A stretch of 32,304 nt of DNA, taken from positions 1 to 32,304 of the IMG/VR virus record IMGVR_UViG_3300030101_000233; one strand, given 5' to 3'. The DNA comes from a virus. The notes beneath the pieces were generated by a model. It saw nothing but the letters and a program-made list of their open reading frames with translations, was not told where the DNA came from and searched no databases. The position numbers and the translations under genes were made by a program. This document shows positions 4,904 to 14,735 of this stretch, piece after piece. Numbering within the stretch: the first letter of the stretch is position 1; each line of letters opens with the position of its first letter.

Positions 4904-7297
4904 TCAATTCCAGTAGTAAGGTGAGTCGATCACCTTGGTGATATCCAAGTCCCCACGTTGGGGAGCGGGAGGTAAGTGTACATCAGATGGCAACATGGTC
5001 AAGAACATTTGTTCGATTTTTCCAAGCATGTCATCTTCAAAAATTTCAACGGTTGCTTCACGCACCGCTTCGTTGAACAGGTCGCAGTCGGTGGCAAGGA
5101 CAGAGGCGGAGTCGTGAACACCAAAGATGTTGTTTACTCCTCTCTCCAAACACTTCAACACAGTCAAACCAAGAATGCCGCCAACACCGTCCAAAGAGTG
5201 GACAAGGTTTGCACAGATGCCGTTGACAGTCTTGCGAACACTTGTCTCTCCGTTTTCAACATTGATGCGGTGTCTTCGCACGTTGCCTGCCACGATTGTT
5301 TTGACGGTCTGTGAGTTGTAGTTCTCGTACCTCATCTTGACTGGGAAGCCAAGCGGAGTCATCCAACGTGGTGTGACATCATGCTCAATGAGAATCTTTG
5401 TGCATTCTCTCAGCCACTCCATGCAAGTATGAGCAGCACCAACAACCTCGTTGATTGCTTGCCAGATCAAAGCAGACAAGAAGTTGCACGGAGCGTATGT
5501 CTCTTCACCAAAGGGATTGCTTCTTCCTGTCTTCAACTCTTTGTAAAACCACTCTGCGGTGTAAGACTGACAGGAGTAGAAGGTAGATCCGTAGCACAGA
5601 GTCATCGTCTGTCGCTTCGTACATGAACGGGTGATGCCAAACTCCAACCACTTCTTTGCGTATGAGTCAGAACTCTCTTGGAGTTTCTGAATAACACGAT
5701 CCGCGACCAACTGATAAGTATCAGATGGCTCGCTGTCCGGCAGGACGTTTGTTGACAAGGCGGACACTGGATCCTTCAGCAGCATCGCGTAAATCTGCAA
5801 ACCTTGTGTTGTGGCATCGAGTGCGACGGGGAGAGTAGTGCGGAAAGACGATCCCTGCAAGTGCAGTTCTGAAATTTCGTGACAAGCCGCCACAAAGCCG
5901 AACGGATCGTCTGCTTTTGTCCAATCCATATTTGCTGTCGGTTCTGTCCCTACCGCTTTAATCATCTCGATATTGGATTCAGTCCACGAATATCGCTGAG
6001 TAAAGGTTTGTTTATCCATGCCCCACTTGTTGGCTGCATTGATGTAGAGCCATCTAACACCCGAATCGTTGATCTTGGCCCCGTCCTCGAATCTGAGAGT
6101 CGCCTTCGTCCACGACGGTCCTTGTGGTTGCCAATAGTGAGGTATGTAGTACCAACGGCCTCGGAAGTCCAGATTTCCGGGAAAGTACACCCGATCTTCT
6201 TTGAACCGCTCCATGACTTGCATGGTCTTCATCACCTGTAAACGCTTGGACTTTTGTCGCTCGTTTTCAAAGTGGATGCGAGCAGCGTCTTTTCTCCACC
6301 GCTTTCTCGCCTCTTTGTTTGTATCAATATCGACAGGTTTGTTGGGAATCTCGTGGTCTTCCATCGAGGGTAGCCCACCAACTGGTAGAGCCTTTTCCCA
6401 AGCCCACTTAAGTGTGCCAGCGACCGTGTGATGATAGCGGGCCGGTACTCTCTGTAGGGAACTCACCGCACGGTACACGCTGTCCATCTCAGTCACCGCC
6501 AGTTCTTCAAGATACGCAGCGTCTTGCGTCTTGACCAGAGGGCGATGCCTGATGTTCAGGGCAGCGTAACCGCCGATGAACGGGTTCTTCCAATCGACAG
6601 GTCGTTCGACGGAAGGCAACCAGACAGGGAACATTATACTTGCTTCTTCGTGCCCGTCACGCATCCATTTCAAGATTTCGTCAGTGGGTCGGATGTAGGT
6701 GTAAGACTTACCACGAGCATCCTTGCGGGTCACGATCTGGATGATGCCTGTGTGCTGCTGCATCAACTCAATCAGGGTGAGGCCGACAGCGACCGCCTCT
6801 TTCTTGTCCCAGCGGCTGATCCCCATGTCGTGGTACTTGAGAGTGTTGTTGATGAATTTGCTTTTGGTTTTCTGGGATTTGTGCCGGTCAATGACACGGT
6901 GCATCTGCTTCCAGAGAGCAGGCTCATTCTCAGCAACCGCTCGGAAGATCAACTCGTCCTCCAGCAGGCGAGCGATGGCAGCAGCCGTGGGAGTGATCTT
7001 CTTTTCCATGCTGATTGAGTCCAGCAGCGACCGGGAAGTGATAGTTGCCACCACGCCAGCAGGGAGCATCTCGATGTAGGGGGCAGCACGATGTCTGCGT
7101 CCCGGCTTGGATCGGGTGGTGGACAGCCATGACTCGATGCCCTGCTCCAATGCGACAACAGCCCCGCTCAACAGTTGCCTGCCGACAGGGGTAGTGGTTT
7201 CCATCTTGGTTTCTTTGGCCCGCTTGACCTTGTGGTTGTAGCGTTCCTGCCCCAGCCGGATCATCTCCTGTTCAAGTTTCTGCTGGGACTTACTCAC
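4904..7297 (-). CDS. Single-subunit DNA-directed RNA polymerase (T7 gp1-like)
   Basis: The 797-residue product (T7: 883) transcribes the middle and late genes from phage promoters. Catalytic residues are visible: Asp494 in Leu-Asp-Ala-Thr-Thr-Gln-Gly-Leu-Gln; Arg557, Lys561 and Tyr569 in the O-helix motif Arg-Ser-Cys-Thr-Lys-Arg-Gln-Thr-Met-Thr-Leu-Cys-Tyr-Gly; and Asp729 in Val-His-Asp-Ser. Asn-Leu-Val-His-Ser-Leu-Asp-Gly matches the family. The C-terminus ends Pro-Tyr-Tyr-Trp-Asn, where T7 has Phe-Ala-Phe-Ala. The start is GTG with no clear Shine-Dalgarno; an in-frame stop at 7327-7325 limits extension. The N-terminal Glu-Met-Ile-Arg-Leu-Gly-x-Glu-Arg-Tyr looks conserved, so later ATGs are unlikely. 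Confidence 0.96.
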   Translation of the reverse strand: MSKSQQKLEQEMIRLGQERYNHKVKRAKETKMETTTPVGRQLLSGAVVALEQGIESWLSTTRSKPGRRHRAAPYIEMLPAGVVATITSRSLLDSISMEKKITPTAAAIARLLEDELIFRAVAENEPALWKQMHRVIDRHKSQKTKSKFINNTLKYHDMGISRWDKKEAVAVGLTLIELMQQHTGIIQIVTRKDARGKSYTYIRPTDEILKWMRDGHEEASIMFPVWLPSVERPVDWKNPFIGGYAALNIRHRPLVKTQDAAYLEELAVTEMDSVYRAVSSLQRVPARYHHTVAGTLKWAWEKALPVGGLPSMEDHEIPNKPVDIDTNKEARKRWRKDAARIHFENERQKSKRLQVMKTMQVMERFKEDRVYFPGNLDFRGRWYYIPHYWQPQGPSWTKATLRFEDGAKINDSGVRWLYINAANKWGMDKQTFTQRYSWTESNIEMIKAVGTEPTANMDWTKADDPFGFVAACHEISELHLQGSSFRTTLPVALDATTQGLQIYAMLLKDPVSALSTNVLPDSEPSDTYQLVADRVIQKLQESSDSYAKKWLEFGITRSCTKRQTMTLCYGSTFYSCQSYTAEWFYKELKTGRSNPFGEETYAPCNFLSALIWQAINEVVGAAHTCMEWLRECTKILIEHDVTPRWMTPLGFPVKMRYENYNSQTVKTIVAGNVRRHRINVENGETSVRKTVNGICANLVHSLDGVGGILGLTVLKCLERGVNNIFGVHDSASVLATDCDLFNEAVREATVEIFEDDMLGKIEQMFLTMLPSDVHLPPAPQRGDLDITKVIDSPYYWN

Positions 7298-7316: not shown

Positions 7317-7330
7317 CTGTAGTACTACAA
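7317..7330. repeat. Palindrome copy 9, between terminator and RNA polymerase start
   Basis: Plus strand CTGTAGTACTACAA, with a TA centre and one changed outer base; it shares two bases with the terminator T-tract and lies 20 bases before the RNA polymerase start. It is the most divergent copy. Confidence 0.7.
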
Positions 7331-7363
7331 AAAAACCCCCCGCAGGCCGAAGCCTACGAGGGG
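7329..7363 (-). terminator. Intrinsic terminator between the early operon and the RNA polymerase gene
   Basis: The minus strand folds into a twelve-pair stem (7363-7352 with 7347-7336) with a UUCG loop and is followed by seven T. Two pairs are G-U and would be mismatches on the other strand, so it acts on minus-strand transcripts. It is the strongest terminator in the window and separates the early operon from RNA polymerase. Confidence 0.93.
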
Positions 7364-7376
7364 TCAACAAGGAGGA

Positions 7377-7396
7377 AATCTGTAGTGCTACAGATT
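7377..7396. repeat. Palindrome copy 8, longest perfect copy (20 bp)
   Basis: Plus strand AATCTGTAGTGCTACAGATT, perfect except for the two central bases. It begins immediately after the stop codon of the last early gene and lies 14 bases before the terminator stem. Confidence 0.95.
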
Positions 7397-7738
7397 CTAC
7401 TGGGGGGTCAGGGAAAGTGTTACGGCATCCGTTGTTTCCATCCAAACTTTTGCACCACAATTGAGTGGCTTGTCGGGTCGGTAGATGACGGAACTTACAC
7501 CGTGAATGTCAACCGACCAGCCCTTGTGATTCGCGTCAGATGTCTTGACGGTGATCGGGGGCTTGCGGTCCTCACTCTTTGAGTTGGCACGAATGACATG
7601 CTGGTTGATGTGGATGCGTTTGAGTTTGCCATCTGGCAAATATGTCTCCGCACCCTCACTGGTGATCACGGTGTGATCGACGTTCATCACCTCAACGCCG
7701 GGTCCACGCAACGGGCTGTCCATTGGAAAGTCACTCAT
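7397..7738 (-). CDS. Conserved-looking small phage protein, unknown
   Basis: The ATG at 7738 is preceded by GGGAGGAT ten bases upstream and overlaps the previous stop by 8 nt. The 113-residue product has Arg-Ile-His-Ile-Asn-Gln-His-Val-Ile-Arg-Ala-Asn, Pro-Pro-Ile-Thr-Val-Lys-Thr and Val-Ile-Tyr-Arg-Pro-Asp-Lys-Pro-Leu-Asn-Cys-Gly-Ala-Lys-Val-Trp, blocks that I recognise from small proteins of other phages and prophages without known function. It is the last gene of the early operon; its stop touches palindrome copy 8 and a terminator follows. Confidence 0.75.
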   Translation of the reverse strand: MSDFPMDSPLRGPGVEVMNVDHTVITSEGAETYLPDGKLKRIHINQHVIRANSKSEDRKPPITVKTSDANHKGWSVDIHGVSSVIYRPDKPLNCGAKVWMETTDAVTLSLTPQ

Positions 7739-7994
7739 CGTCAGGATCCTCCCTGCCTGTCTCGGCATCGTGACGCATGTTCTCCGTATGCTCCTCCTCT
7801 AAATCAACGTGATATGACCACGCACGCTCCACTCGGCTTTTGAGTTGGGGCAGTTGATACGCGGTGAACAGAATGAACTCCTGCTCGCCCAGCATGCGTC
7901 GTGCTTGTGAACGTGCAACTTCAAGCGTGCATTGACCAACGCGAGTGAACCCGCTGTTTGTACACGCATACCAATCATTTCTAGGAAGTCTCAT
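7731..7994 (-). CDS. Early protein of unknown function
   Basis: The ATG at 7994 follows GGAGGAT. The 87-residue product starts Met-Arg-Leu-Pro-Arg-Asn-Asp-Trp-Tyr-Ala-Cys, has a helical centre (Leu-Glu-Val-Ala-Arg-Ser-Gln-Ala-Arg-Arg-Met-Leu-Gly) and a very acidic end (Gly-Arg-Glu-Asp-Pro-Asp-Asp-Glu). No domain is recognised. It overlaps the next gene by 8 nt. Confidence 0.7.
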   Translation of the reverse strand: MRLPRNDWYACTNSGFTRVGQCTLEVARSQARRMLGEQEFILFTAYQLPQLKSRVERAWSYHVDLEEEHTENMRHDAETGREDPDDE

Positions 7995-8148
7995 TTTTAT
8001 CCTCCCCGCGCTTAACACGCTTGTGGATATCCCGTAAATCAAGAATGATGTCAGCCAATTGCTCAGACTCATGGTCACCAGATGAAATCAAATTCAATAA
8101 GCGATCAATGGCACTGTCGAGGTGACGCAATAAATGTTTCTTTTTCAT
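7981..8148 (-). CDS. Small charged helical protein, unknown
   Basis: The ATG at 8148 has AAGGAGAT upstream; a longer reading to 8184 would use an unsupported start. The 55-residue product (Met-Lys-Lys-Lys-His-Leu-Leu-Arg-His-Leu-Asp onward) is almost entirely helical with alternating Leu/Ile and charged residues, as in small regulatory or anti-host proteins. It overlaps the next gene by 14 bases. Confidence 0.65.
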   Translation of the reverse strand: MKKKHLLRHLDSAIDRLLNLISSGDHESEQLADIILDLRDIHKRVKRGEDKNETS

Positions 8149-8212
8149 TTTTATCTCCTTGTTGGCCCACCACCCCCAGCCCATGCCCGAACTGAGGATG
8201 GCAGACCAAAAT

Positions 8213-8226
8213 CTGTAGTGCTACAG
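8213..8226. repeat. Palindrome copy 7, directly after the DUF932 gene
   Basis: Plus strand CTGTAGTGCTACAG, in the 80-base gap before the next ribosome site. No U-tract follows it, so it is not an ordinary terminator. Confidence 0.9.
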
Positions 8227-8228
8227 AA

Positions 8229-9101
8229 TCAGAACTCTGAAGCGAGTTGAGACAGAGCCTCATCAGAACGGCTGGTCACATCAACGATGTCGAAGCGATC
8301 ATTGAGGATCTTGTCGAGCCGCCCGAAGCGGGACGCTTGCGTGATCACATTGCGACCACGGTCGTTGGAGGTGAAGGCGTTGTAGAGCGAGTCCACAGTG
8401 CGTTCGCGGAACTCTGGATGCTCTGGCTCCTCCCAGTGTCCGAGGACACGCATCGTCGCCGCAGCACCGATGACACCCTCACGAGCCGCCTCCATGATGC
8501 AGTGCTTGGCATCGTCATCGCCGCACTCCACATTCTTCATCCATTCCACCCGCCGCACACGATCCTGAGCCACTGACGGAATGCCGCTGATGCAAGCATC
8601 AAGCATGTTGTACAGAGACTCGAAGCCATCGTCCTCGGAGCCGAGGCCACGCATGTGCTTCTTGGACACCTTGCCCGCGACCTTGCCCAGAGTCATGCCG
8701 TTGGAGCAGACTTGGACACGCTCGCCCAACGCACCGCCAGCCCGTGTGGACATGTCGTATGAGTTGGTCAAGGCAAACTCCCACCAACGGTCGCCCGTGT
8801 CGGGGAGGTCAGGCCGAGAGATCCCGTACAAAGACAGGAACCTCCCGTACTTCTTGTGGTCCTTGATCTTGGGATTCTTGACCGGAGCAGCCGCGTAGTG
8901 GACTGGCTCGGACAGGGTGAACCCGTGAGTCTCAAGGATCCGCGTAGCCATGTCCACAAACGTGCCATGAGGCAGGATGCGGTATGTGTGCGGATACTGG
9001 GTGGGAGTGGGAAGGTTTTGGATGGTCTTGTCATCCACGATGTCACCCCAGTTGCCCGGATCGAACGGGGTGGGTTTGGGTGGGTTACTTACAGCCGTCA
9101 T
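8229..9101 (-). CDS. DUF932-family phage/plasmid-like protein
   Basis: The ATG follows AAGGAGG at ten bases and overlaps the previous gene by 17 bases. The 290-residue product has the DUF932 core: Phe-Ala-Leu-Thr-Asn-Ser-Tyr-Asp-Met-Ser-Thr-Arg-Ala near residues 108-120, then Gly-Glu-Arg-Val-Gln-Val-Cys-Ser-Asn-Gly-Met-Thr-Leu-Gly (about 125-138). Family members are frequent in phages and plasmids and their biochemical role is not settled. The N-terminal 40 residues are Pro-rich. The stop codon is separated from palindrome copy 7 by one base. Confidence 0.8.
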   Translation of the reverse strand: MTAVSNPPKPTPFDPGNWGDIVDDKTIQNLPTPTQYPHTYRILPHGTFVDMATRILETHGFTLSEPVHYAAAPVKNPKIKDHKKYGRFLSLYGISRPDLPDTGDRWWEFALTNSYDMSTRAGGALGERVQVCSNGMTLGKVAGKVSKKHMRGLGSEDDGFESLYNMLDACISGIPSVAQDRVRRVEWMKNVECGDDDAKHCIMEAAREGVIGAAATMRVLGHWEEPEHPEFRERTVDSLYNAFTSNDRGRNVITQASRFGRLDKILNDRFDIVDVTSRSDEALSQLASEF

Positions 9102-9423
9102 TGGAATAAGCCTCCTTGGCTTGCTTGTATCTGGCTTGTGAGACAGTTTTAGGAACGATCTGAATGTCTCGATTCTGTAGTGCTACAGATTCTGAAGTGT
9201 TGCCAACGAGTTGATCAAGTTCAGCGATCTTGCGTTGACGCAATCTGCCCAACTCAGTTTTGAGTCCAGCGGACACGATGCGACGAAGAACCTCAGACTT
9301 GTTGGTCTTGAGCATAGATCCGTTGGACAGGTTCTCGTGATTGAGTTCCCGCACCAAGTACTCGATGTCATCATTGATTTTGATGTCACCTTGGAATGAG
9401 AGAGTGAAGTATTTGTTAGGCAT
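9085..9423 (-). CDS. Possible ribbon-helix-helix DNA-binding protein
   Basis: The ATG at 9423 has a perfect AAGGAGG six bases upstream. The 112-residue product starts with a beta-like strand (Lys-Tyr-Phe-Thr-Leu-Ser-Phe), then helix-forming segments ending in Asn-Lys-Ser-Glu-Val-Leu-Arg-Arg-Ile-Val-Ser-Ala-Gly-Leu-Lys-Thr-Glu-Leu (about 41-58), which resembles the second helix of CopG/Arc-type repressors. The rest is Arg/Lys-rich. Residues 79-84 are Ser-Val-Ala-Leu-Gln-Asn from palindrome copy 6. If the fold is right, it is the best local candidate to bind the palindromes and control its own operon. The fold call is uncertain. Confidence 0.7.
   Translation of the reverse strand: MPNKYFTLSFQGDIKINDDIEYLVRELNHENLSNGSMLKTNKSEVLRRIVSAGLKTELGRLRQRKIAELDQLVGNTSESVALQNRDIQIVPKTVSQARYKQAKEAYSNDGCK
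9175..9188. repeat. Palindrome copy 6, inside the possible DNA-binding protein gene
   Basis: Plus strand CTGTAGTGCTACAG. With its flank it encodes Ser-Glu-Ser-Val-Ala-Leu-Gln-Asn, as copy 4 does, so the two copies share sequence beyond the palindrome. Confidence 0.9.
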
Positions 9424-9736
9424 TTGAAACCTCCTTGAGTTCTGCCTCTGCTTTTTCGAGTGTTTCCATCCGGCGGTCATTGCACCATTGAGCAAGTGCC
9501 AAGCCGAACTGTCCGATGTCACCGATGGTCAAGGCGGTCTGCCCGTCCTCATTGTGACGATTGTCAAACCAAATGGTCAGACGCTTTGGGTGATTGGCGT
9601 GGATGTTGGTCGCCTCAAATGTGACGTAACCAAACTCTTTGAACGCATCACCCATCATTGAATGCTCCTTGATGTGCAACGCATGCACACCGTCGAGCGT
9701 CATGTTGAACGAAAATTGCTGATCAATTCCAGACAT
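9416..9736 (-). CDS. Early protein of unknown function
   Basis: The ATG is preceded by AGAGGAA. The 106-residue product has a mixed beta-rich start (Phe-Ser-Phe-Asn-Met-Thr-Leu-Asp-Gly-Val), Val-Thr-Phe-Glu-Ala-Thr and Leu-Thr-Ile-Trp-Phe-Asp-Asn, then a C-terminal charged helix. No family is recognised. Its end overlaps the next gene by 8 nt, a spacing seen four other times here. Confidence 0.75.
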   Translation of the reverse strand: MSGIDQQFSFNMTLDGVHALHIKEHSMMGDAFKEFGYVTFEATNIHANHPKRLTIWFDNRHNEDGQTALTIGDIGQFGLALAQWCNDRRMETLEKAEAELKEVSNA

Positions 9737-9879
9737 TGAATTTCCTCTTCGGTTAGAAGGTCTGAGTACTGACGGAGTAGCCGTTTGGCAAGTTTGGCTG
9801 CCGTCTTGGGATGCTCTTTTGCTGCCGCGAATACGACATCACGCTTGAGCGAAACTAGCCACGAGCGGTTTTGTGGCAC
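9700..9879 (-). CDS. Small helical early protein, unknown
   Basis: The GTG start at 9879 has a strong AAGGAGG nine bases upstream; longer readings of the frame lie inside the previous gene and have no such site. The 59-residue product is basic and helical (Val-Phe-Ala-Ala-Ala-Lys-Glu-His-Pro-Lys-Thr-Ala-Ala-Lys-Leu-Ala-Lys-Arg-Leu-Leu). It overlaps the upstream gene by 41 bases and the next by 37, the deepest pair of overlaps in the early operon. Confidence 0.65.
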   Translation of the reverse strand: MPQNRSWLVSLKRDVVFAAAKEHPKTAAKLAKRLLRQYSDLLTEEEIQCLELISNFRST

Positions 9880-10630
9880 TTGTTGAATCCTCCTTGAACT
9901 TGGATGCCCCAACACCGTGAACTGTGATCTGAACGTGGGGGACTCGAACAGATCGTTCTGACATGTTGCCTTGGCACAGGTGACACTGGTCACAGGTCGT
10001 CCGTTTGCCGCCCTCATCAGATGCAGGACACACGATGAGGCCGCGTTTCTGTAGTGCTACAGATTTGTTGACCCGAAAGCAGCGATACCCAAGTGCCTCG
10101 GCTTGCTCCTGCTCCGCATCAGTCTCGACCGATGCCATGCAGATGTCAGCGAAATCGGGATCACACCATTGCCATTGATGCGTATATCCCGTCCACTGCT
10201 TCGCATTATTGCACAAATCACGCCAAATATCAAGTGGCATCATGGCTGGATCACCATACGAACCAACACGCAGCGAGCGACCTCGGAGCCGACGATAATC
10301 GCAGCGACCTTGGGCCTGATAGTTCCCACGTCGCCACGCCTTGTAGACCCCGTTGGGGCCGAGCAGATTGACGTAGCAGGAACGCTTGCCCGTGGTGAGG
10401 TCACGGCGATGCACACAGTCACCGCAAATGCTGGAGTCTTCCCCATTGCGTGTCGCACTGATGGGATCAATGTCCTGCCGAAGAATCCAAGACTGAACCA
10501 TCTGCCCAGTCTTGGGATTCTTCGTGCCGGAGAACCCAGTCAGGATGCACACGATGGGCTTGCCGTCCATGGCAGATGGCCCTTCGTAAACAATCACAGG
10601 AGCCGCCCCACTGCGTAGATGATGAGCCAT
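9839..10630 (-). CDS. Cysteine-rich conserved phage protein, unknown function
   Basis: I use the ATG at 10630 because the conserved-looking part begins soon after (Pro-Val-Ile-Val-Tyr-Glu-Gly-Pro-Ser); the ribosome site is weak and the start could shift. The frame is open further up but would overlap the previous gene by 103 bases. The 263-residue product has Cys-Gly-Asp-Cys-Val-His near residue 70, Cys-Tyr-Val-Asn, and a C-terminal Cys-Pro-Ala-Ser-x-Glu block followed by Cys-Asp-Gln-Cys-His-Leu-Cys, so at least one zinc site is likely. This architecture is familiar from other phages but has no function I can name. Residues 190-194 are Ser-Val-Ala-Leu-Gln from palindrome copy 5, between two blocks that look conserved. 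Confidence 0.8.
   Translation of the reverse strand: MAHHLRSGAAPVIVYEGPSAMDGKPIVCILTGFSGTKNPKTGQMVQSWILRQDIDPISATRNGEDSSICGDCVHRRDLTTGKRSCYVNLLGPNGVYKAWRRGNYQAQGRCDYRRLRGRSLRVGSYGDPAMMPLDIWRDLCNNAKQWTGYTHQWQWCDPDFADICMASVETDAEQEQAEALGYRCFRVNKSVALQKRGLIVCPASDEGGKRTTCDQCHLCQGNMSERSVRVPHVQITVHGVGASKFKEDSTSATKPLVASFAQA
10049..10062. repeat. Palindrome copy 5, inside the cysteine-rich protein gene
   Basis: Plus strand CTGTAGTGCTACAG. It encodes Ser-Val-Ala-Leu-Gln-Lys just before the Ile-Val-Cys-Pro-Ala-Ser block, as if added between domains. Confidence 0.9.
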
Positions 10631-10905
10631 GTCACCAGACCGCCAGACAGGAACCCAGTCAGGTAGAGCAGCCACTCGCCCGTGCCGTCGTACCACTTGG
10701 ACTGATCGTCGATGTACCCACCAGCCACCAGTGGCGGATTCTGTAGTGCTACAGATTCTGAGTAGTTCGGGTCGGTGTCGGCCTCCAGCATCTCACGCAT
10801 GAACGAGTCGTAGTCCTCGTCGGGCAGTAGGTCGAAAGCGATTTGCTCGCCCGTAGGCAACTTGCCCGAGGCGAGAGGTGAATCAGATTTGATTTTGTTA
10901 GGCAT
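10594..10905 (-). CDS. Early single-span membrane protein, unknown
   Basis: The ATG has AAGGAGAG upstream. The 103-residue product has an acidic N-terminal half (Leu-Leu-Pro-Asp-Glu-Asp-Tyr-Asp-Ser-Phe) and a C-terminal hydrophobic helix (about residues 78-101, Leu-Leu-Tyr-Leu-Thr-Gly-Phe and Leu-Val-Thr-Trp-Leu-Ile-Ile-Tyr), so it is probably anchored in the inner membrane with the acidic part free. Residues 51-55 are Ser-Val-Ala-Leu-Gln from palindrome copy 4, placed between the two halves. A role in blocking superinfection or acting on the host envelope is possible, but nothing in the sequence proves it. Confidence 0.75.
   Translation of the reverse strand: MPNKIKSDSPLASGKLPTGEQIAFDLLPDEDYDSFMREMLEADTDPNYSESVALQNPPLVAGGYIDDQSKWYDGTGEWLLYLTGFLSGGLVTWLIIYAVGRLL
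10741..10754. repeat. Palindrome copy 4, inside the early membrane-protein gene
   Basis: Plus strand CTGTAGTGCTACAG. On the coding strand it follows TCAGAAT and gives Ser-Glu-Ser-Val-Ala-Leu-Gln-Asn, the same eight residues as copy 6. Confidence 0.9.
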
Positions 10906-10921
10906 GGCACTCTCCTTGTTT

Positions 10922-10935
10922 TTGTAGTGCTACAG
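10922..10935. repeat. Palindrome copy 3, in the P2 leader
   Basis: Plus strand TTGTAGTGCTACAG, one outer base changed from the consensus. It lies about 31-44 bases downstream of the predicted P2 start and about 17 bases before the ATG of the next gene, just upstream of its ribosome site. Confidence 0.8.
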
Positions 10936-10947
10936 AATTTGGACATC

Positions 10948-10964
10948 GAAGGAACAATTCCTCC
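10948..10964 (-). promoter_or_regulatory. 5' leader hairpin of the P2 transcript
   Basis: The minus strand GGAGGAATTGTTCCTTC folds as a seven-pair stem (one G-U) with a three-base loop. It sits at the same distance from the -10 box as the P1 hairpin and shares GAGGAATTG, although the surrounding leaders differ. Confidence 0.55.
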
Positions 10965-10972
10965 ATTGCTAT

Positions 10973-11000
10973 ATCCTACCAAAACCAGTATGTAAGTCAA
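10973..11000 (-). promoter_or_regulatory. Early promoter P2, sigma70 type
   Basis: On the minus strand TTGACT (11000-10995) and TAGGAT (10978-10973) are separated by 16 bases. The -10 is weaker than in P1 (four of six). The choice of -10 is supported by P1: in both promoters GAGGAATTG begins nine bases after it. P2 would restart transcription after the preceding terminator and drive the main early operon. Confidence 0.65.
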
Positions 11001-11086
11001 TAGCCACCAGCGACTGAGGCAGCGACCACAAACCTATCACCCCTCCTCGCTCCGCTCGTCGGGGCTGTCACGCCGAAAATTTGGGC

Positions 11087-11116
11087 AAAAAAAATCCCCC
11101 GCCCGAAGGCAGGGGA
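11087..11116 (-). terminator. Intrinsic terminator after the first early gene
   Basis: The minus strand gives a nine-pair stem TCCCCTGCC / GGCGGGGGA with a UUCG loop, followed by eight T. One pair is G-U and would be a C-A mismatch in RNA from the other strand, so it works for minus-strand transcription only. It isolates the first early gene from the next. Confidence 0.9.
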
Positions 11117-11137
11117 AGTAAGGGGAGGGTGATTGGA

Positions 11138-11818
11138 TTAGGCAGATGCGACGGTCGCGGAGGCCTCGACAACCTCGGCCGCCTCGGCTAATTGTCCTTG
11201 GATCAGTGCCAATTGCTCGGGCGTGAACTCGACGGCATGGGTGGACAATTTGTCGATGATCGTAGACAGAGCCGACTCGACTTGCACAAACGGTGCTTTT
11301 GTTGACTGGCCTTCGGAGTCGGGAGCATCGTCCCCGGTGGCTTTGTCTGCCTTATTGCCAGCCTTCTTACGAAGAGGGAAAGCGGAGTCTTTGCCAGCCT
11401 TCTCGCCATGCTTCGGATCCATCCAGTCGAGCAAGGCCTCACGACATGCCTCGCGACCTTCCTCGCTCATGTAGAACACATCAGTATCGGAGTCTCTCGC
11501 AATGGCCTTCCATCGGTAGTCCTGCAATTCCCCGACAATCCGATGCATCGAGCCGACTGGCAAGGCCTCGAACCCTTCCACGTCCATAGCGACCGTGTAT
11601 ACGTCTGCTTGCTTGATCCAATTGTTATGACTTGAAGACGACTTCTGTAGTGCTACAGATACGTCCTCGATGAAGCCTTCTCGGTCGTCCTTCTCAATGG
11701 CTCGGTAGGCCTCGGCGAATGCCAGAACAAACGCCCCATGAGCGGAGCCTTGGAATTCCAATTCCGCCTTACGAAGTTTCTTGGCGGCGTTGATTGCTTT
11801 GTTGATGAGTCGTTTCAT
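11138..11818 (-). CDS. First early protein, unknown function, carries palindrome-encoded peptide
   Basis: I start it at the ATG at 11818, preceded by AAGGAA; longer readings of the frame run back into the promoter leader. The 226-residue product has a basic helical N-terminus (Lys-Arg-Leu-Ile-Asn-Lys-Ala-Ile-Asn-Ala-Ala-Lys-Lys), a middle with Val-Gly-Ser-Met-His-Arg-Ile-Val-Gly-Glu-Leu-Gln-Asp-Tyr-Arg, a Lys/Asp-rich linker (about 134-172) and an Ala/Glu-rich helical end. Residues 54-58 are Ser-Val-Ala-Leu-Gln, encoded by palindrome copy 2. As the first gene after P1 and before a terminator it is probably made at once on infection, like the host-takeover proteins of T7, but I recognise no domain. 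Confidence 0.8.
   Translation of the reverse strand: MKRLINKAINAAKKLRKAELEFQGSAHGAFVLAFAEAYRAIEKDDREGFIEDVSVALQKSSSSHNNWIKQADVYTVAMDVEGFEALPVGSMHRIVGELQDYRWKAIARDSDTDVFYMSEEGREACREALLDWMDPKHGEKAGKDSAFPLRKKAGNKADKATGDDAPDSEGQSTKAPFVQVESALSTIIDKLSTHAVEFTPEQLALIQGQLAEAAEVVEASATVASA
11645..11658. repeat. Palindrome copy 2, inside the first early gene
   Basis: Plus strand CTGTAGTGCTACAG. Read on the coding strand it gives Ser-Val-Ala-Leu-Gln at residues 54-58 of the host gene, followed by Lys and a run of serines, which looks like a linker. Confidence 0.9.
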
Positions 11819-11836
11819 TTCACATTCCTTGTTAGG

Positions 11837-11852
11837 CGAGGACAATTCCTCG
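11837..11852 (-). promoter_or_regulatory. 5' leader hairpin of the P1 transcript
   Basis: The minus strand reads CGAGGAATTGTCCTCG, a six-pair stem with an ATTG loop, beginning within a few bases of the predicted start of transcription. The sequence GAGGAATTG starts nine bases after the -10 box, exactly as in P2. A 5'-terminal stem could protect the message or be a regulator site. Confidence 0.6.
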
Positions 11853-11860
11853 ATGCATGC

Positions 11861-11889
11861 ATTAGACCACAATCGGACCCATGCGTCAA
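11861..11889 (-). promoter_or_regulatory. Early promoter P1, sigma70 type
   Basis: On the minus strand TTGACG (11889-11884) and TCTAAT (11866-11861) are separated by 17 bases, matching the host sigma70 consensus at five positions each. It precedes the first early gene by about 35 bases of leader. The leader begins with a perfect six-pair hairpin. No other promoter in the window is as close to consensus. Confidence 0.8.
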
Positions 11890-11903
11890 GTGCCCTACAG
11901 AAT

Positions 11904-11917
11904 CTGTAGCACTACAG
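11904..11917. repeat. Palindrome copy 1, upstream of early promoter P1
   Basis: Plus strand CTGTAGCACTACAG, the only copy with the CA centre on this strand. An extra half-site CTACAG (11895-11900) lies three bases away, so three half-sites are stacked. The nearer one ends five bases before the -35 box of P1. This position (about -41 to -63) suits an activator or a repressor acting on the first early promoter. Confidence 0.85.
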
Positions 11918-11918
11918 A

Positions 11919-12148
11919 ATCGGCAAACAAACGCCCCACGCCAAACGCATAACGCAAACAAAATGCAACGCTACAAGTTTGCAAAATGCAGGGGGCCACG
12001 GGGGTCATGCTGTGCAAAATGTCTTTTTTTAAGGCTCTCAGATTTTTTTACCAAATTTGCCCGAAGTTCAGCAGCAAAATGCCACCTTTATCCCAAAGCG
12101 TCTTGATGGGGACTCTATTTAGCCCGTTGTGCCACTTAAATCGCAGGC
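11919..12148. other. Noncoding late/early junction, candidate genome-end or origin region
   Basis: No credible gene lies here on either strand. The region holds four direct repeats of CAAAATG, two A/T tracts (seven T at about 12023-12029 and again near 12045-12051 on the plus strand), and T/G-rich DNA. It separates the last late gene from the first early promoter. In T7 those two are the two ends of the linear genome. I see no terminator hairpin immediately after the upstream gene. Confidence 0.5.
11959..12082. repeat. Four direct repeats of CAAAATG(C)
   Basis: Copies lie at 11959-11966, 11982-11989, 12015-12021 and 12075-12082 on the plus strand; three are followed by C and three are preceded by G. 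Spacing is irregular (23, 33 and 60 bases between starts), so they are not tightly phased iterons. With the nearby A/T tracts they could be protein-binding sites at an origin or packaging end. Confidence 0.5.
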
Positions 12149-12415: not shown

Positions 12416-12657
12416 TAGAACCTCGGAATTGGTTTTTCGGAGTCAAGTCGAATAGCCAACGCAGCACGACCACGAGATGCCTTACGTCTACGAGCAAGTT
12501 GTTTCTTTTTGTATCGAACATCCACAGTGCCTTGAACAACATCTGTACTACCGATAGGAGAACCCACAGGACGGAAACCAGTTCTTGGATCGCTTCGGGT
12601 TCCAAACACTTGACGACTTCGGTCAGCATTGGGATTGTTTACTGATGCTGTAGGCAT
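12415..12657 (-). CDS. Small basic protein of unknown function
   Basis: The 80-residue frame is joined to both neighbours by TAATG overlaps (12657 and 12415), which supports its reality over a competing, Val/Leu-rich frame at 12399-12629. The N-terminal half is polar, with Gly-Phe-Arg-Pro-Val-Gly-Ser-Pro. The C-terminal half is strongly basic (Lys-Lys-Lys-Gln-Leu-Ala-Arg-Arg-Arg-Lys-Ala), suggesting nucleic-acid contact. No family is recognised. Confidence 0.65.
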   Translation of the reverse strand: MPTASVNNPNADRSRQVFGTRSDPRTGFRPVGSPIGSTDVVQGTVDVRYKKKQLARRRKASRGRAALAIRLDSEKPIPRF

Positions 12658-13056: not shown

Positions 13057-13079
13057 GATCCATATAGGTGACCCTATTA
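13057..13079. promoter_or_regulatory. Imperfect palindrome resembling a phage RNA polymerase promoter
   Basis: The element starts at the large terminase stop codon. On the minus strand it reads TAATAGGGTCACCTATATGG, which begins and ends like a T7 promoter (TAATA...TATA-GG) but with a different centre. On the plus strand, 13062-13079 matches the SP6 promoter at 15 of 18 bases by my count. The core ATAGG-N4-CCTAT (13064-13077) is an inverted repeat. A minus-strand promoter would drive the HNH operon; a plus-strand one would make antisense terminase RNA. I found no second copy upstream of the capsid gene, so the call is tentative. Confidence 0.3.
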
Positions 13080-14735
13080 CATCCATGTTTTCTCTTTGGG
13101 TTTATGACCGACAGCAGACTCCATGAACTTGTCCAGATCGTCTTGCAACGCTCGGGCCTTGCGGTCTTTCATTGCCTGCTCTGCGTCCTGAGCCATCTGT
13201 TCTGTCCAGTACGACACAGCCATCGCCAGCACATCCAGCCGGTCATCATGGGCCAGCGATCCGCGATACTTGGTGATCCGGCTCATCTGGTACATCAACT
13301 GGTAGCGGAGAGCCTTCTCAGGGGGCATCGAGCGGGTGCTTTCGTAGTCCTGCTGAATCACGCTGCGATTGATCACCAACTTGTGACTGGTCATCACAGG
13401 CTCCAGCGTGTCGATGATCCGCTTTTCTTTCTGGGTGGTGTGCTTGACCTCTTCAATCGAGCAGGGGTAAATCTTCTTTAACACGGGCTTGAGCAACTGG
13501 GTAAACATGCCATCACCAAAGTTGGCTTCGATACGCAGGGTGTTGACCTTCTCCTTCTTGGCAATCTTGCACAGGGCTTCCAGAGTCTCCTCTGAGTATC
13601 CCCCCGGCAGACCCCCCGCCTCTGTGACAAACAGGTAGCCATTCAGCATCTTGACTACGGCATATGCAGTCTCGTCAGCACCCCGTCCAGATGGGTCAAT
13701 AGCCATGACTGAGCCGGTGTAGTCAGCCCATGCTCCGTCGATCACCGTAATAGGCCCGTAGAAGCGATCTCCCGGCAATCCGACGTTGGGTAGGTCTTCG
13801 ACCACGTTTTCCTTTGAAGCCCCCCAGACAGGCTTCTCCGGCCCCTGTGAGGTGTTTACGGACATGACGATCAGATCGCTGAGTTTGAGGGGATATCGCC
13901 CTTGATCAGACAGGCTGGAGTCCAGCATGAACTGGAGGTTGAATCCGGTACGCCCGTAGGAGGCTTCTCGCTCCAGCAGATCCTCGTGATCAAAGCGATC
14001 GGGATCTGTGGGCCTACCGCTGATATCTGGATCAGTATCCAGTTCAGTAATGAGGGCAGGAGCCAGTTTATCCCCATATCCTTTTCGTTGGCTGCTAGAT
14101 GGATATCTTGCGGGCCAAATACGAACCTCAAAGCCACGCTCAGGCATGTAGGTGTAAATACTGGATTCTGTCTGAGGCGTGCCCAGCACCACAATGTGGC
14201 CTCCCGGCTTCAGAACCGCATCGAACTCTTTCATCGTCTCTGTCAGTTTGTCCCGCATGGTCTGGGTCGCACTGTTGTTCAGAGATTCGACATCATCAGC
14301 CACGATCAGGTCAGCCCGTGACCCGGTGATCTGACTGGTGATTCCCTTGGACACCACGGACGGAGCGTGTGAGGCTTTGGCTGGCCCAACGTCAAATGCC
14401 ACCTTGGAGTTCCGCTGATCCTCTGTAGGCTTCAGGTGGCCCAGTATGGGCATCTCATTGATCATGCGAAGAGTAAAGGTAGAGAAGTCATCCGACCGTT
14501 GCTTGGACGCTGACACCACCAAGATGTTGCTGTTGGGGTTCAGAAGCAACTGGTGACATACATAAGCAGACGTAATCCAAGACTTGCCAACCCCACGAAA
14601 AGCCTCAATGACTCGACGTTTAGGCCCATTCTGAAGATACTCAGCAATATCGTATTGAATGCGAGTAGGAGCAGGAAGCCCCAAATGGTCCCAAGCCAAG
14701 TAAAGGAAGTTACGGAAGTCGGCAAGTTCATTCAT
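13077..14735 (-). CDS. Large terminase subunit (T7 gp19-like)
   Basis: The 552-residue product is near the T7 gp19 length (586). Residues 45-53 (Ala-Phe-Arg-Gly-Val-Gly-Lys-Ser-Trp) are the Walker A loop with Lys51. Leu-Ile-Val-Ala-Asp-Asp-Val-Glu at 143-150 is Walker B with the catalytic acid. Val-Leu-Gly-Thr-Pro-Gln-Thr near 184-190 is the coupling motif. The RNase H-like nuclease starts at Ala-Ile-Asp-Pro-Ser-Gly-Arg-Gly (Asp347) and includes a later Asp-Asp-Arg-Leu-Asp. It cuts concatemers and pumps DNA into the prohead. It is the last gene of the overlapping late chain and is followed by a 186-base gap. Confidence 0.96.
   Translation of the reverse strand: MNELADFRNFLYLAWDHLGLPAPTRIQYDIAEYLQNGPKRRVIEAFRGVGKSWITSAYVCHQLLLNPNSNILVVSASKQRSDDFSTFTLRMINEMPILGHLKPTEDQRNSKVAFDVGPAKASHAPSVVSKGITSQITGSRADLIVADDVESLNNSATQTMRDKLTETMKEFDAVLKPGGHIVVLGTPQTESSIYTYMPERGFEVRIWPARYPSSSQRKGYGDKLAPALITELDTDPDISGRPTDPDRFDHEDLLEREASYGRTGFNLQFMLDSSLSDQGRYPLKLSDLIVMSVNTSQGPEKPVWGASKENVVEDLPNVGLPGDRFYGPITVIDGAWADYTGSVMAIDPSGRGADETAYAVVKMLNGYLFVTEAGGLPGGYSEETLEALCKIAKKEKVNTLRIEANFGDGMFTQLLKPVLKKIYPCSIEEVKHTTQKEKRIIDTLEPVMTSHKLVINRSVIQQDYESTRSMPPEKALRYQLMYQMSRITKYRGSLAHDDRLDVLAMAVSYWTEQMAQDAEQAMKDRKARALQDDLDKFMESAVGHKPKEKTWM

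Follow-up and report, generated by a model that had tools for sequence, protein, structure and literature searches.

Dispersed palindromic sites in the early region of a T7-like phage switch motif in concert between relatives and point to a phage-made regulator

The question raised by the first early promoter

T7-like phages are usually regarded as strictly lytic. Repressors of their temperate members have been hypothesised only (MarR in LUZ100; PMC10134795), and in T7-like cyanophages a repressor was not found (PMC8776855). The DNA studied here, referred to as the window (the whole stretch of 32,304 nucleotides, positions 1 to 32,304 of IMG/VR record IMGVR_UViG_3300030101_000233), carries three short half-sites against the -35 box of its predicted first early promoter. 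A preliminary description took them for the site of an activator or repressor of that promoter. Do they serve this promoter alone or are they part of a larger system, and which protein would bind them? The features concerned are (operators, being palindromic, are given without a strand):

11861-11889, minus strand: promoter P1, TTGACG (11889-11884), 17 bp, TCTAAT (11866-11861); from the sequence and the promoter scan
11895-11900, no strand: additional (third) half-site CTACAG, separated by 3 bp from the palindrome and by 5 bp from the -35 box
11904-11917, no strand: copy 1 of the palindromic operator (CTGTAG-NN-CTACAG), lying upstream of P1; at the homologous site of relative L042 the motif is CTGGGACGTCCCAG instead

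P1 resembles a sigma70 promoter and is predicted to drive gene 1. The arrangement first described was recovered in full: on the plus strand CTACAG (11895-11900), AAT, CTGTAG (11904-11909), CA and CTACAG (11912-11917) follow each other with spacers of three and two bases, and five bases (11890-11894) separate them from CGTCAA (11884-11889), which reads TTGACG on the minus strand. Taking the start near 11854, the placement at about -41 to -63 is likewise confirmed. The flanks of copy 1 stretch the palindrome to 11900-11921 (GAATCTGTAGCACTACAGAATC on the plus strand).

Layout of the early region

Every T7-like feature tested for was found in the window. The RNA polymerase gene lies 3' of the early region and the replication and tail genes are of the T7 type, as in the Autographiviridae. 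The genes lie on the minus strand in the order terminase (13077-14735), early genes, single-subunit RNA polymerase, and primase-helicase and DNA polymerase. The relevant elements are:

11138-11818, minus strand: gene 1, 226 aa, first early gene and candidate repressor with a helix-turn-helix-like segment; own promoter and own terminator
11095-11116, minus strand: intrinsic terminator 3' of gene 1 (sequence scan)
10973-11000, minus strand: promoter P2 of the early operon, TTGACT-16-TAGGAT (promoter scan)
4904-7297, minus strand: T7-type single-subunit RNA polymerase gene (Pfam RNA_pol, E 3.7e-79)

P2 is the predicted driver of the early operon beyond gene 1, and the operon ends at a terminator (7334-7365). 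All promoters are predictions from a consensus that may not be the host's own.

Two further early proteins serve below as landmarks. The cysteine-rich phrog_2554 protein (9839-10594, minus strand) is found in more than 500 viral stretches and in 148 isolate records, mycobacteriophages included. The conserved 290-aa protein (8229-9101, minus strand) has relatives in metagenomic contigs only and none among 50,697 phage records; it had no Pfam match, and its working label DUF932 was dropped because Pfam gave it no support.

A set of nine copies confined to the early region

The site at P1 is one of a set. The window palindrome is CTGTAGCACTACAG, with the core CTGTAG-NN-CTACAG. In the whole record the pattern CTGTAGNNCTACAG occurs seven times exactly, against no occurrence of the reversed control pattern, and two further copies have one mismatch. 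Ten Markov reshuffles of the record contained no palindrome family with at least three copies. Beyond copy 1 the copies are:

11645-11658, no strand: operator copy 2, within gene 1 (encoding SVALQ), in its helix-turn-helix-like segment
10922-10935, no strand: operator copy 3, one mismatch, in the early-operon leader, centred at +38 of P2; kept in L010
10741-10754, no strand: operator copy 4, in a 103-aa gene; site kept despite changed flanks in L010 and L042 (motif switched in L042)
10049-10062, no strand: operator copy 5, in the phrog_2554 gene; encodes SVALQ here, SGTSQ in L042 and SCHDK in L051
9175-9188, no strand: operator copy 6, inside the 111-aa gene of a ribbon-helix-helix-like protein
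8213-8226, no strand: operator copy 7, directly past the stop codon of the gene for the 290-aa early protein
7380-7393, no strand: operator copy 8, 3' of the last early gene and ahead of that gene's terminator (7334-7365)
7317-7330, no strand: operator copy 9, one mismatch, between the terminator and the RNA polymerase gene; adjoins the extended -10-like TGCTACACT

All nine lie within 7317-11917, a stretch of 4.6 kb in a record of 32.3 kb (p about 1.5e-6 under even scatter), which is the early region preceding the RNA polymerase gene. Four copies are inside genes, two are directly 3' of stop codons, and the terminator of the early operon is flanked by one copy on each side. Since sites inside genes encode SVALQ, SGTSQ or SCHDK, it is the DNA and not the protein that is conserved and under selection. 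A search of viral contigs with the 16-mer returned several copies in L010 only; most of the single matches look like chance.

Concerted switching of the motif between close relatives

In L010, whose polymerase is 97% identical and whose DNA is about 95% identical, all seven sites over the covered part are kept, even where the flanks diverge. L042 (polymerase 94% identical) carries CTGGGACGTCCCAG ten times instead, mostly in the same genes and gaps as the window sites. In L051/L050 (polymerase 85%) and in L048 the palindrome is CTTGTCATGACAAG, and L039 (polymerase 89%) has a single TTTGGACATCCAAA at a homologous place. The more distant L052 (polymerase 51%) has seven copies of TGTAGCAAGTTGCTACA. 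Close relatives thus differ in the motif of the entire set at once. Alignments place the switched motifs at homologous positions, the L042 site upstream of P1 included; in L051, where the automatic alignment of a gene end was shifted around the site, homology was read from the gene position.

The L048 genome, which is the same as L060, has 15 copies of CTTGTCATGACAAG, all in its first 5.6 kb. Six of these lie upstream of the first promoter (L060:310-850), where two pairs are 45 bp apart and the leader is TGTTG-rich. Copy numbers are 9 in the window and 10, 15, 7 and 12 in relatives (range 7-15).

A wider genome search with the conserved 290-aa early protein as query added the motifs TTCGGAGA-N-TCTCCGAA, GTTGGGA-N-TCCCAAC, TTCGGGTG-NN-CACCCGAA, ATCTGGG-N4-CCCAGAT and CCGGGG-N4-CCCCGG, in the genomes L075, L077/L101, L078/L081, L079 and L080. 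Several motifs are symmetric right up to the dyad, which suits a dimer that binds double-stranded DNA. This symmetry also bears on the idea that early transcripts fold into hairpins at the palindromes, which would serve either as processing sites, as in T7, or in translation control. Many copies do lie in leaders or between genes and a short stem could form. In G002, G003 and G004, however, the symmetry crosses the would-be loop, where a hairpin does not need it, loops and stems change together with the symmetry kept, and the window, G002 and L081 carry copies upstream of predicted transcription starts. We consider the hairpin explanation highly improbable.

Switching likewise bears on the binding of a host transcription factor, which the phage would exploit to activate its first promoter. 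The position at -41 to -63 would suit an activator, and bacterial factors typically recognise half-sites. Such binding is nevertheless very unlikely, as phages whose polymerases are still 85-94% identical already differ in motif; moreover, many copies lie in or after genes, and the interval from -70 to -45 is not enriched, as shown below.

Placement relative to predicted promoters

Placement was tested in nine genomes, strong promoters being those predicted with a score of at least 9.4 (n=11), with 2000 circular shifts as the control. A site is centred at +30 to +65 of the predicted start in 9 of the 11 (0.45 expected), which none of the 2000 shifts achieved; since the scoring scheme and windows were picked after viewing the same genomes, this significance is somewhat optimistic. 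Between -45 and +10 of the same 11 promoters there is no site against 0.74 expected, so that avoidance of the core promoter is by itself not significant. At a lower threshold 2 of 20 promoters have a site at -70 to -45, a count at least equalled by 345 of 2000 shifts. Because +30 to +65 is enriched and -70 to -45 is not, the family would appear as a rule to place its block downstream of the promoter, inside the operon. P1 of the window is an exception to this placement, partly matched by L081 (-53) and by the homologous upstream site of L042. In L075 and L081 the sites extend into the genes for RNA polymerase and replication.

The coupling to predicted promoters (the 9 of 11 at +30 to +65) also speaks against the view that the copies are not transcription sites but centromere-like, replication or segregation sites of a ParB/KorB-like protein. 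That view draws on the resemblance of dispersed perfect palindromes to parS and KorB operators, and on a weak ParB-like PHROGs match in the Lys/Ala-rich part of the L075 gene 1 product (E 0.0024; no Pfam match). In the window group, however, the sites are confined to the early operon and no ParA or ParB was identified, and we regard segregation as scarcely probable. KorB-like proteins also act as repressors, and to that extent this alternative overlaps with the explanation that we prefer.

The candidate binding protein

As the motif switches between close relatives, its binder should be phage-encoded and should vary along with the motif. The early genes of the window, L010, L042 and L048 are mostly recognisable in one another (about 42-94% identical) and gene 1 is the exception. 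It is found in all genomes that cover the locus, but BLAST detects no similarity between the L042 version and the others compared, the window included. The matching of gene to motif is of the negative kind only, there being no same-motif pair with full gene 1. The window and L060 versions show a weak match (24%, E 0.001), aligned through NEEIAKLLNVAKSQIANWKKL, a segment that, read by eye, looks like a helix-turn-helix.

Searches of Pfam, PHROGs and the PDB gave nothing significant or reliable for gene 1, and AlphaFold2 models of the window and L060 proteins were poor and unusable (pLDDT 46-49). A search of viral contigs with gene 1 found no relative, nor did a search of isolated phages with the window and L052 proteins. 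From its variation and position gene 1 is the most likely candidate for the binder.

A different phage-encoded protein, for instance one encoded in a stretch missing from the contig, is an unlikely though less remote alternative than the three above. It would accommodate the lack of a family match for gene 1, and two further open reading frames of L042, of 306 and 157 aa, had no relative by BLAST. No counterpart of these two was found in the L048/L051 genome with its 15 sites, and the remaining early genes are similar across motif groups. The ribbon-helix-helix-like early protein, at first favoured as the binder, was excluded, its DNA-facing N-terminal strand being near-identical in L010 and L051 despite their different motifs. 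This protein (9085-9420, minus strand; fold read by eye) has strongly conserved helices, and relatives of it adjoin the 290-aa gene in L052, L075, L078 and L081 too.

A roadblock to host RNA polymerase as the proposed mechanism

We therefore return to gene 1. The sites are probably dispersed operators of a phage-encoded DNA-binding dimer, most likely the gene 1 product, which would act in the early operon as a roadblock to the host RNA polymerase. Made first from P1, the product would bind the nine palindromes spread over the early operon and up to the RNA polymerase gene. A bound dimer would then obstruct the host enzyme at +38 of P2, within genes and at the polymerase promoter, and so shut off the early operon: during lysogeny in relatives with an integrase, and as a timed or co-infection shut-off in those without.

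Tyrosine integrases adjoin the polymerase gene in L052, L075, L077, L078 and L081, and because of these five relatives part of the group is probably temperate. An integrase is absent from the window and from the L042 genome, which is apparently complete with contig ends that overlap imperfectly; lysogeny therefore does not account for everything in L042. A search of genome contigs with the RNA polymerase found no prophage relatives, and one with the integrase gave distant matches alone (21-50% identity).

We would give an even chance to the broader proposal that, in a group of uncultivated T7-like phages, gene 1 represents a new, fast-diverging repressor family with palindromic roadblock operators that switch as a set. 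As the system is kept in lineages without an integrase, it would on the same proposal serve immunity or early shut-off in lytic infection too.

The site at the first promoter reconsidered

Its conservation, together with the joint switching of motifs, gives good support to a regulatory, protein-binding role for the spot upstream of P1, the predicted first early promoter. The notion of a site chiefly serving that promoter lacks such support, given a phage-wide set of nine copies whose preferred places are +30 to +65 and inside genes. Binding at -41 to -63 need not block initiation, and gene 1 is probably autoregulated through the copy at P1, which may serve its maintenance or activation. In G003 (L060) the gene 1 promoter has a site at +40, unlike in the window, and regulation of P1 is therefore not uniform.

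Two peculiarities had been singled out at this copy. The added half-site is unique in its exact form, but one-mismatch versions stand at the same 3-bp spacing next to the copies at 7380 and 9175, and for this reason its meaning is suggestive only. The homologous L042 site has CTGGAA at the same spacing, a 5/6 match to its own half-site CTGGGA; the added half-site would perhaps tune the autoregulation of gene 1. The reversed centre is real as well (on the plus strand CA once, against TG seven times and TA once). A functional meaning for it was rejected on account of the free flipping of the centre in relatives (6:6 in L075, 2:3 in L101), and because of this flipping it is probably neutral.

Comparison with known systems

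The closest parallels are the stoperators of the cluster A mycobacteriophages L5 and Bxb1, which are dispersed, have lineage-specific motifs and are presumed to block elongation (PMC6550527, PMC9283540); Streptomyces phage R4 has a repressor-stoperator system too (PMC10276819). As in cluster A, there are many sites, some at promoters and others elsewhere, a repressor role being our inference here, and motif sets differ by lineage at positions that are syntenic in close relatives. Stoperators are 13-bp, asymmetric and oriented sites of temperate phages (PMC6550527, PMC9283540, PMC10276819), whereas the sites of the window group are palindromic and without fixed orientation (L075 6:6, L101 2:3), the carrier is a T7-like phage that encodes an RNA polymerase of its own, and the candidate repressor is without detected similarity to known families. 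As the defining asymmetry and orientation are absent, we do not class the window system as a member.

In LUZ100 a MarR regulator was hypothesised to repress the polymerase gene (PMC10134795). Among known T7-like phages of the temperate type, an annotated MarR or helix-turn-helix gene (the latter in Pasto) together with an integrase is found in HTVC019P, CRP-403 and Pasto, and an integrase in S2B and jiawei. The window group shares with this module the early-region control proposed for the phage RNA polymerase gene and, in the five relatives named above, the integrase next to that gene, but no MarR family match was obtained among its early proteins scanned. No repeated palindromes were found in the stretches scanned of these five phages, which for HTVC019P, Pasto and S2B were parts of the genome.

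Symmetric operators spread over an early region are known from phiC31, an unrelated type of phage, in which the c repressor acts on many conserved inverted repeats, as would be the case here. The KorB operators of plasmid RK2 and parS sites are also dispersed palindromes through which one protein silences genes, with the difference that gene 1 has no significant KorB/ParB homology.

Some phages with a phrog_2554 gene have palindromes of their own. The viral contigs L116 (4333-8142) and L147 (2474-10420) repeat GCGTTAG-N4-CTAACGC and CCTAAC-N4-GTTAGG, no T7-type polymerase was recognised in the stretch covered, and the first gene is of 258-272 aa in each; the operator architecture may extend beyond the T7-like phages. 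A 53-kb viral contig, L117, has three exact copies of TGTTTCACGTGAAACA (7412-7427, 9519-9534 and 12642-12657), which we take to be the textbook bacterial parS, and this phage may borrow the ParB of its host.

Implications

With some ten sites that switch motif together and one candidate repressor gene next to them, immunity groups of T7-like phages would become directly testable. If the proposal holds, the relatives form a natural collection of orthogonal repressor-operator pairs and the sites are a palindromic form of the stoperator principle. Because relatives have another mirror sequence at the matching positions, the comparison points to a phage-made switch protein, with its own "key" for each lineage, that would be able to stall early transcription.
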